Source: Candidatus Nomurabacteria bacterium (GTDB taxonomy: Bacteria; Patescibacteriota; Minisyncoccia; Phycocordibacterales; UBA9973). From it: a DNA stretch of 36,414 bases. The stretch lies in the NCBI GenBank assembly GCA_025361085.1, contig JANYAX010000023.1:1-36414 (forward strand). Direction: 5' to 3'. This document shows positions 1-12,046 of the stretch, in pieces. A program made the position numbers and the translations under genes. Below the pieces are notes generated by a model. That model saw only the letters and a program-made list of their open reading frames with translations, was not told the origin of the DNA and made no database searches. Within the stretch, counting starts at the first letter, position 1, and the number at the start of each line of letters is the position of its first letter.

Positions 1-1
1 A

Positions 2-136
2 TGGAAGAGTTTGAATGAATATTTAATGTGGTACAATTACGAAAGAATACATCTGGGAAAGTATCTTAATGGTATGATTCCGATTGAGAAGTGGCAGAAT
101 TATCAATTAAAAGTGTCACCTCTAAAGGTTAACTGA
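2..136 (+). pseudogene. C-terminal fragment of an IS-type (integrase-core/DDE, IS481-like) transposase, open at the window start
   Basis: Frame from nt 2 reads WKSLNEYLMWYNYERIHLGKYLNGMIPIEKWQNYQLKVSPLKVN*. The YNYERIHLGKYLNGMIPIEKW segment resembles the YN..RPH..L.G.TP C-terminus of rve transposases. May be intact upstream of the window. Confidence 0.6.
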
Positions 137-172
137 ACAAACACCCCCGACCGAAGTCGAGGGCGTTTTGTT
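137..172 (+). terminator. Hairpin terminator after the transposase fragment
   Basis: ACAAACaCCCCCGA-ccgaag-TCGAGGGcGTTTTGTT imperfect inverted repeat. Confidence 0.5.
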
Positions 173-251: not shown

Positions 252-280
252 TTGTCAAGTTTTATGATACCTGGTATAAT
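252..280 (+). promoter_or_regulatory. rnpB promoter
   Basis: TTGTCA (252-257), 17-nt spacer, TATAAT (275-280); predicted start ~287-288 coincides with the 5' base of helix P1. Confidence 0.75.
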
Positions 281-308
281 CCAAAAAGGTTTGTATCGGA
301 TAGATGCG

Positions 309-424
309 CCAATTTTGTTTACCGCAGGTATTACAAAATTGAGCGCCCCGAGGCATTCGAGGGGCAGCCCTTCGACAAGCTCAGGGCACTCGATTTTTGC
401 GACACCTTCGGTGGGCAAAATCGG
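309..424 (+). repeat. rnpB-internal repeat copy 1 (P3 position)
   Basis: CCAATTTTGTTTACCGCAGGTATTACAAAATTGAGCGCCCCGAGGC...CACCTTCGGTGGGCAAAATCGG; shared with 446-560 and 801-914. Confidence 0.9.
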
Positions 425-445
425 TGAGGAAAGTCCGGGCACACG

Positions 446-560
446 CCAATTTTGTTCACTGAAAGTGATTACAAAATTGAGCGTCCCGAGGCATCGAGGG
501 GCTATCCTTCGATAAACTCAGGATTCTCAATTTTGCGACACCTCCGGTGGACAAAGTTGG
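446..560 (+). repeat. rnpB-internal repeat copy 2 (just 3' of the P4 5' strand, P5-P7 area)
   Basis: CCAATTTTGTTCACTGAAAGTGATTACAAAATTGAGCGTCCCGAGGCATCGAGGGG...GTTGG. Confidence 0.9.
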
Positions 561-800
561 CAGAAGTGTAGTGGGTAATACCCATCGCGAGCAATCGTAG
601 AGGTGCGAGCAGAGACGCTAGTAATCTGAAAAGATCTAGCTCCAGCAATGGATGAGTCTTCATATAAATTCGCAAGAATGAAATTGAAGAGTGAAACGGC
701 TAAATCCTTACATGTGTGCAAGATCGTACTCTCTGACTTAGGTCAGAGTCTGAATCGCTTGACCCCGAGAGTAATCGAGGGGCTAGATAAATATCTATCG

Positions 801-914
801 CCAATTTTGTTTACCGCAGGTATTACAAAATTAAGCGTCCCGAGGCATCGAGGGGTTATCCTTCGACAAGCTCAGGACCCTCAATTTTGCGACACCTTCG
901 GTGGGCAAAATTGG
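801..914 (+). repeat. rnpB-internal repeat copy 3 (between the P2 3' strand and the P4 3' strand, J2/4)
   Basis: CCAATTTTGTTTACCGCAGGTATTACAAAATTAAGCGTCCCGAGGCATCGAGGGG...CAAAATTGG. Confidence 0.9.
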
Positions 915-950
915 GACAGAACCCGGCTTATAGATACAAACCAAATAAAT

Positions 951-983
951 GAAAAACACCTTGTCCAAAGCATGGTGTTTTTC
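951..983 (+). terminator. rnpB terminator
   Basis: GAAAAACACC-ttgtccaaagcat-GGTGTTTTTC, 10-bp perfect stem. Confidence 0.85.
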
Positions 984-1330
984 ATTTGTATTTTATACTT
1001 AAAAATACGAAATAAAACATCATTTATCCCGAACGAAAATTTAAAATAATTTTTTTGGTATAATATTTTTTAATTTTAATAAATTATTTTTTTACTTAAT
1101 TTAAATTAATCAGAATTTTCTTACGGGATTCTTAATTTTCTAATTTGCGAAGCAAAAAGAAAATTGGAAAGTTATCCACACTTTTTTATAAAAAAGTATT
1201 GCAGTTATTTGTTTTATGTTAGATAATATATGTGTGAGTGTGATTAATTTTTTTTACAAATATTTTTTTAAAAATAATTTGTAAGGTCGTGAAGTCACAC
1301 ATCTTTTAAAAATAATCTTTTAAAAAATTT

Positions 1331-11280: not shown

Positions 11281-11307
11281 TCTCCGCCAGGACTGTCCTA
11301 GCGGAGA
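11281..11307. repeat. REP hairpin, 5' flank of RAYT
   Basis: TCTCCGCcAGGAC-t-GTCCTaGCGGAGA. Confidence 0.85.
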
Positions 11308-11328
11308 AAATTAATATATAATATAAGA

Positions 11329-11985
11329 ATGTCACTTCGTAAAGTAAAATTTATTCAAGGAGAATATTTCCATATTTACAATCGTGGAAACGATAAAAAA
11401 GTTATTTTTAAAGATAAGGAAGACTATGAGCGCTTTGTTGGCTTGATGTACGCATGCAATCAGGTTGAGAATTTTAAAATTGATAATTTACAGAAAGATG
11501 AAGGATTGTTTAATGTAATAAGGAAAAATCTTCTAGTTAATGTTGGAGCTTATTGTTTAATGCCCAATCATTTTCATATTTTAATTATACAAACTGAATA
11601 TGATGGTATTAGTAAATTTATGAAAAAGCTTTTAACTGCTTATGTAATGTACTTCAATAAAAAGTATAAAAGGACAGGAAGTTTATTCGAGGGTAAGTTT
11701 AAAGCAGAACATGCAGGGAATAGTAGATATTTAAAATATTTATATTCTTATATTCATCTCAATCCAATAAAACTAATTAATAAAAATTGGAAAGAGGAAG
11801 GAATAAAAAATAAAAATGAAGCTATTCATTACTTAAATCAGTATAAATATTCTAGTTATCTTGATTATTTAGGGGAGAATAGAGTTCAAAGTAAAATATT
11901 AAATATTAGCAGTTTCCCTAATTATTTTTTATCAAAAAAAGCCTTTAAAAATGAAATTTTTGAGTGGTTATCATTTAAAGATTAA
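11329..11985 (+). mobile_element. REP-associated tyrosine transposase (Y1/IS200-like, RAYT)
   Basis: FHIYNRGNDKKVIFKDKEDYERFVGLM ... AYCLMPNHFHILIIQ (HUH) ... LLTAYVMYFNKKYKRTGSLFEGKFKAEHAGNSRYLKYLYSYIHLNPIK. Confidence 0.95.
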
Positions 11986-12012
11986 TCTCCGCTAGGAAAG
12001 TCCTAGCGGAGA
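11986..12012. repeat. REP hairpin, 3' flank of RAYT
   Basis: TCTCCGCTAGGA-aag-TCCTAGCGGAGA, 12-bp perfect stem immediately after the stop codon. Confidence 0.9.
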
Positions 12013-12046
12013 TTGCGAGGCAGATTTTATTTTTTGCTCAATCAAT

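Follow-up and report, generated by a model that had tools for sequence, protein, structure and literature searches.

The sole RNase P RNA gene (rnpB) of a Candidatus Nomurabacteria genome carries three copies of one palindromic, multi-hairpin element, each in the place of an ordinary hairpin of the RNA. The gene lies in the 36,414-nucleotide stretch of DNA analysed here (the window). Sequence comparison showed that the element belongs to a family found almost exclusively in rnpB within one order of Paceibacteria-type CPR bacteria. We propose, with moderate confidence, that this rnpB gene has been colonised by a horizontally spreading palindromic hairpin element, which is tolerated as a replacement peripheral helix. 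The features of the gene are listed below; bit scores of the elements refer to a covariance model of the family (R1).

252..280, + strand: promoter-like site TTGTCA-17-TATAAT with TG before the -10, directly upstream of P1 (consensus scan, 11/12 matches)
288..942, + strand: rnpB (RNase P RNA) from P1 to P1', with exact P1, P2 and P4 strands; the genome's sole RF00010 match
309..424, + strand: element E1, replacing P3 (115 bits to R1; short P3 hairpin here in sisters)
426..440, + strand: P4 5' strand GAGGAAAGTCCGGGC (exact sequence match)
446..560, + strand: element E2, replacing the J5/7 hairpin (P5.1 position) between P5 and P7 (122 bits to R1; short hairpin in sisters)
561..800, + strand: P7-P18 core and P2 3' strand, P9 hairpin intact (RF00010 alignment and sister alignment)
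801..914, + strand: element E3, replacing P19 (117 bits to R1; CCCTA-GCAA-TAGGG type hairpin in sisters)
916..930, + strand: P4 3' strand ACAGAACCCGGCTTA (exact sequence match)
947..987, + strand: terminator-like hairpin with 17-nt arms (94%), then TTGTATTTT (inverted repeat I11, directly downstream of rnpB)

The conserved strands of the RNA were found exactly where the original prediction had put them, with P1 at 288-297/933-942, P2 at 299-305/793-799, and GAGGAAAGTCCGGGC and ACAGAACCCGGCTTA of P4 starting at 426 and 916. The P1/P2 pairing and the two exact P4 strands are as expected for bacterial RNase P RNA class A (RF00010). Its covariance score is nevertheless only 29 bits against a family gathering cut-off of 100, because the three inserts split the match; sister rnpB genes without inserts reach up to 140 bits. 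Subtracting the three elements from 288-945 leaves 313 nt, in agreement with the core of about 310 nt that had been predicted. The host is a CPR bacterium with a 771-kb genome rated 100% complete, and the RF00010 search proposed with the prediction matched only the gene at 288-942. This is therefore the sole rnpB, and a pseudogene accompanied by an intact copy elsewhere is ruled out. Membership in a group I or group II intron class was also considered, and no intron family appears among the Rfam matches (E<=10) in 150-1100.

The genome encodes RnpA. The promoter call rests on its position directly upstream of the gene, since a scan of such sites showed no excess over shuffled sequence, and the terminator scan gave no score for the hairpin at 947-987. 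Given the intact core, promoter and RnpA and the lack of any other rnpB in the genome, the RNA is predicted to work with its inserts. The P4 core motifs are likewise intact in the carriers that we examined. The first 139 nt of the window (1-139) recur identically at many contig ends of the assembly (C5, C8, C13, C14, C18, C26, C27 and C32), and the window begins at an assembly break in a multi-copy repeat just upstream of rnpB, probably the end of an insertion sequence.

E1, E2 and E3 are 114-116 nt long and are copies of one element, 88-91% identical, so both the coordinates and the paralogy of the three predicted modules hold. Over their full length E1 and E3 share 90% and E2 and E3 88% identity (E 1e-37 and 3e-35), and identity between any copy and its closest sibling is 89-91%. 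Three instances of the palindromic end unit CAATTTTG-N-CAAAATTG are present in the window, against 0.01 expected from shuffles, and there are none in the rest of the genome. Together, the full-length matches and the end unit rule out chance similarity. An assembly artefact or collapse is unlikely, since the longest exact block common to two copies is 32 nt and the same element is found in other genomes. Each element reads, in order, CCAATTTTG, small hairpin a, CAAAATTGAG, two apical hairpins, CTCAATTTTG, small hairpin c and CAAAATTGG. Both ends are palindromic hairpin units of about 32 nt each (e.g. 310-341 and 882-913), and a single such unit stands alone at the P19 site of another rnpB gene (L045). 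The apex is not specific to the element, as its sequence CCTTCGACAAGCTCAGG is a short repeat that recurs elsewhere in this genome and in the order.

Alignment with rnpB of five species of the same genus (L012, L014, L016, L021 and L022) revealed a short ordinary hairpin at all three element sites, namely P3 (between GATGCG and TGAGGAAAG), the hairpin between P5 and P7, and P19 (between P2 and ACAGAA). The second site we take to be the P5.1 position of type B RNAs, using helix names from general knowledge of RNase P. In each case the element takes over the hairpin of its site from the first base pair; thus, the elements replace hairpins at the base and do not occupy unusual added places, as had been supposed. 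The predicted locations at P3 and just after the P4 5' strand were confirmed, but the third element lies at P19 and not in J2/4. The prediction had also set paralogous inserts against ordinary variable helices as exclusive outcomes of a sister alignment. By that alignment both descriptions apply, in that paralogous elements have taken over ordinary variable helices of rnpB.

The prediction did not foresee how widely the element is distributed: it forms a family present in many families of the order, with rnpB as almost its only location. When 297 genomes from the order were searched at the DNA level, long matches turned up in many families, and all 19 of the long-match loci fetched from other genomes have both P4 motifs nearby. 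R1, which was trained on rnpB copies so that distant free copies may be missed or under-sampled, matched 42 of the 297 genomes, the named genomes in this survey being metagenome assemblies. At 45 bits or above, 33 of 36 places fall in rnpB. The remaining three are all in one genome (G138): a copy inside a group I intron (305 nt by ARAGORN) in the anticodon region of tRNA-Met(cat) (L082; G138:C3, 914-1290), and two near-identical intergenic copies (L083 and L084). Counted among the 33 are apparently identical rnpB regions from genomes assigned to two families (L076 in G057 and L077 in G220), which suggests a contaminating contig common to both assemblies.

A search of 85,462 species genomes with the exact left-end pattern of the element returned 26 matches, of which 23 are in rnpB (one on a truncated contig), two are located upstream of, and on the same strand as, 16S rRNA, where just the left part of the element is clear (L133 and L144), and one is probably due to chance. 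The names among these matches are Zambryskibacteria, Kaiserbacteria, Taylorbacteria, Nomurabacteria, Adlerbacteria, Ryanbacteria and Sungbacteria. One contig named as Omnitrophica WOR_2 (L124, MHGP01000077.1) has the element at the P3 site of a truncated rnpB, reflecting either mis-binning or transfer beyond the phylum. Weaker partial matches were seen upstream of 16S (L087), in a 16S gene adjoining a group I intron (L096) and beside tmRNA (L091); in the last case a partial element-like hairpin at 974-1086 lies directly upstream of the tmRNA gene, apparently on the antisense strand. Beyond the order, a 380-genome phylum-wide sample searched with strict filters matched the query genome only. 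The same exact pattern, a strict one, had no match in 2.9 million viral contigs, and viral spread was set aside. We found no report of this element family in open PMC papers.

The 46 full-length copies come from 37 distinct rnpB genes, with one to three copies per gene. Sites were named partly by flanking motifs; the copies occupy P19 (18), J5/7 (11), the P15-P17 region (7), P3 (5) and P9 (4), and one is best read as P12 region, giving six helix sites in all. Both strands were searched throughout, although the initial hits used to build the profile had been picked as sense. Of 48 full-length copies scored for orientation, 44 favoured the rnpB sense by 10 bits or more and none the antisense, so that all 44 clear cases are sense.

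Comparisons between families suggest that the element has moved apart from the gene around it. Identity of the element to copies from other families is mostly 75-85% (mostly 77-85% for L042, L043, L047 and L048; 70-73% for L031), while the rnpB cores of those genes are 62-71% identical to ours. Peripheral helices are normally more variable than the core, so the reverse order seen here suggests horizontal movement independent of the gene; L044 is an exception, with 77-81% for the element and 76% for the core. Additionally, 7 of 17 multi-copy elements have their nearest neighbour within the same gene, where 0.4 would be expected. These are the three copies of the present rnpB (L001), two in L048 (95%) and two in L134, and other copies are closest to same-site copies of other genomes. 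Taken together, the likeness across families and the close kinship of copies in one gene suggest that the element was acquired horizontally and then multiplied within the gene, and the two kinds of nearest kin fit same-site transfer between species plus local spread. In its own genus the element is present in one of 24 species; none of the 23 sister species searched has it, suggesting a recent acquisition by this lineage.

We therefore favour the following scheme for the colonisation of rnpB. The element, in which a pair of variable apical hairpins is flanked by two inversely ordered palindromic hairpin units, replaces ordinary rnpB hairpins at their base, always in the sense orientation in clear cases. 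Transfer between species at the same site may proceed by recombination via the conserved rnpB core. Local copying at helix bases, by gene conversion or template switching, could then seed other hairpins of the same gene. Such copying would account for near-identical copies within a gene, for their fixed orientation and for the lack of copies elsewhere in the genome. Presumably the elements would be retained in the RNA, adding long peripheral helices to it. The non-rnpB copies in G138, one in the tRNA-Met(cat) group I intron and two intergenic, argue against this scheme, and they make some DNA-level mobility likely.

The minimum-energy fold of the elements is a long rod of -54 to -58 kcal/mol (z -8 to -9), which beats a four-way form by 9-13 kcal/mol of predicted energy. 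While free energy alone predicts the rod, covariation favours a four-way junction bearing local side hairpins. Hairpin a shows compensatory changes at four of its five pairs in 21 aligned copies. It is perfectly Watson-Crick in 40 of 46 full-length copies, with at least five different pair sets (TGCC/GGCA, CACC/GGTG, CGCC/GGCG, TACC/GGTA and CACT/AGTG), which upholds the multi-hairpin nature that had been predicted for the modules. The outer cross-helix fits both forms, but the inner cross-helix of the rod is only 75% paired in the aligned copies and fully paired in 10 of 46, compared with 42 of 46 for hairpin a. A simple rod is thus disfavoured. The constraint behind this covariation could act on either the DNA or the RNA strand. 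In the minimum-energy fold of the whole RNA, E2 is predicted to pair with E3 across the core, which would be a folding hazard if all elements were retained; with three similar palindromes in one RNA, ordered co-transcriptional folding or removal should be favoured.

Removal is the core of an alternative that we consider somewhat unlikely, in which RNase III would cut the double-stranded insert stems from the precursor and leave a fragmented but working RNase P RNA, as for the intervening sequences (IVS) of 23S rRNA. Those sequences are also stem-forming, patchy in distribution and located at the ends of variable helices in a stable RNA (PMC4990558, PMC11270868). The size of the present elements, their patchy distribution, their position where helices of a stable RNA end and their long base-paired ends (z -8 to -9) are all in keeping with this. 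Such a mode is open to this bacterium because its genome encodes RNase III, and the predicted E2-E3 pairing would be a cost of keeping all three inserts. Furthermore, CPR rRNA has short ORF-less insertions of unknown type (PMC11270868). In contrast to 23S rRNA IVS, the host RNA here is RNase P RNA and a single family occupies six helix sites. The covariation of the side hairpins implies a constraint on a four-way fold that a throwaway spacer would not need, and excision leaves the near-confinement to rnpB unexplained.

It is unlikely, in our estimation, that the element is a REPIN- or MITE-type DNA element that a Y1 (RAYT/IS200-like) transposase mobilises in trans, with insertions outside rnpB lost fast in compact genomes and those in rnpB kept because the hairpin joins the RNA. 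Like REPINs, which pair two palindromic hairpins in inverted order over about 100 nt and are associated with REP sequences and RAYTs (PMC3116915), the element consists of two inverted palindromic units; G138 has its two near-identical intergenic copies, and the window itself holds a Y1_Tnp gene at 11329-11985. REPINs, however, occur as many dispersed intergenic copies, whereas the present genome has three copies in a 313-nt target and none at other loci. A near-palindrome should also insert both ways, yet the clear cases are only sense. The Y1 gene (IS200-like, RAYT-type) carries on both flanks, within 11285-12015, a different palindrome, TCTCCGCYAGGA..TCCTAGCGGAGA, which has no relation to the rnpB elements. 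The flanking palindromes thus do not support a role for this gene in moving them.

We regard as improbable a functional RNA domain that binds a protein or RNA partner, is kept by selection and can sit on any peripheral helix. The element is mostly better conserved than the core, its orientation is fixed, and it has a covarying hairpin with conserved flanks, all of which such a domain would show. However, 255 of 297 genomes in the order and 23 of 24 in the genus gave no match, indicating that the element is not needed, and copy number varies from one to three. Least probable is mobility at the RNA level, by invasion in one orientation of hairpins in folded, abundant structured RNAs followed by copying back into DNA; if true, structured RNA genes and not intergenic DNA would be the element's habitat, with RNase P RNA, the tRNA-Met group I intron and perhaps pre-16S leaders as targets.

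Short tandem repeats (STRR) inside cyanobacterial rnpB, offered as the precedent in the original prediction, are repeats within the same gene and lack a structured 115-nt unit. The precedent stands as far as repeats inside rnpB go; beyond that the comparison is weak, STRR units being short and arranged in tandem, and the units here are of 115 nt and dispersed, the copies lying 138 and 354 nt apart.

The nearest precedents are the rRNA intervening sequences considered above and the Rickettsia palindromic elements (RPE), which are reported from genes for M1 RNA and tmRNA (PMC2229807, citing Ogata 2002). RPEs are palindromic units of 105-146 bp with a long stem and terminal inverted repeats, present inside RNA genes including that of RNase P RNA, and the 114-116 nt of our elements fall within their size range. 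RPEs differ in being described from intergenic regions and reading frames (PMC2229807), whereas the present element is found almost only in rnpB, in up to three copies, hairpin for hairpin and locked in orientation. Divergent CPR RNase P RNAs are also on record, with scores below model thresholds and enlarged helices like those of the present gene (PMC8172020). The passages on these RNAs describe helix extensions and losses and no shared repeat family.

Palindromic elements in RNA genes have so far been known as isolated cases. Here, an essential ribozyme gene is the main home of an element family in about 14% of the order's sampled genomes, and the family stands in for natural helices at six positions, while its movement between lineages appears to be uncoupled from the surrounding gene. 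Two questions thereby become testable: how much extra RNA an RNase P tolerates, and how an element can be mobile despite near-confinement to one gene. The elements also explain some missed rnpB genes in CPR genomes, as illustrated by the 29 bits obtained here against a cut-off of 100.

The P19 site of one further rnpB gene (L036) holds an unrelated hairpin of more than 100 nt (CCGAGCACCACTTCTATACCTC..GAGGTATAGAAGTGGTGCTCGG), so the element is not the only sequence to displace rnpB hairpins in this group. A second hairpin family, CCCAGYTCCAGTTTTG..CAAAACTGGRRCTGGG, was seen at rnpB helix sites in L045 (J5/7) and L092, and is perhaps related to the ends of the element.
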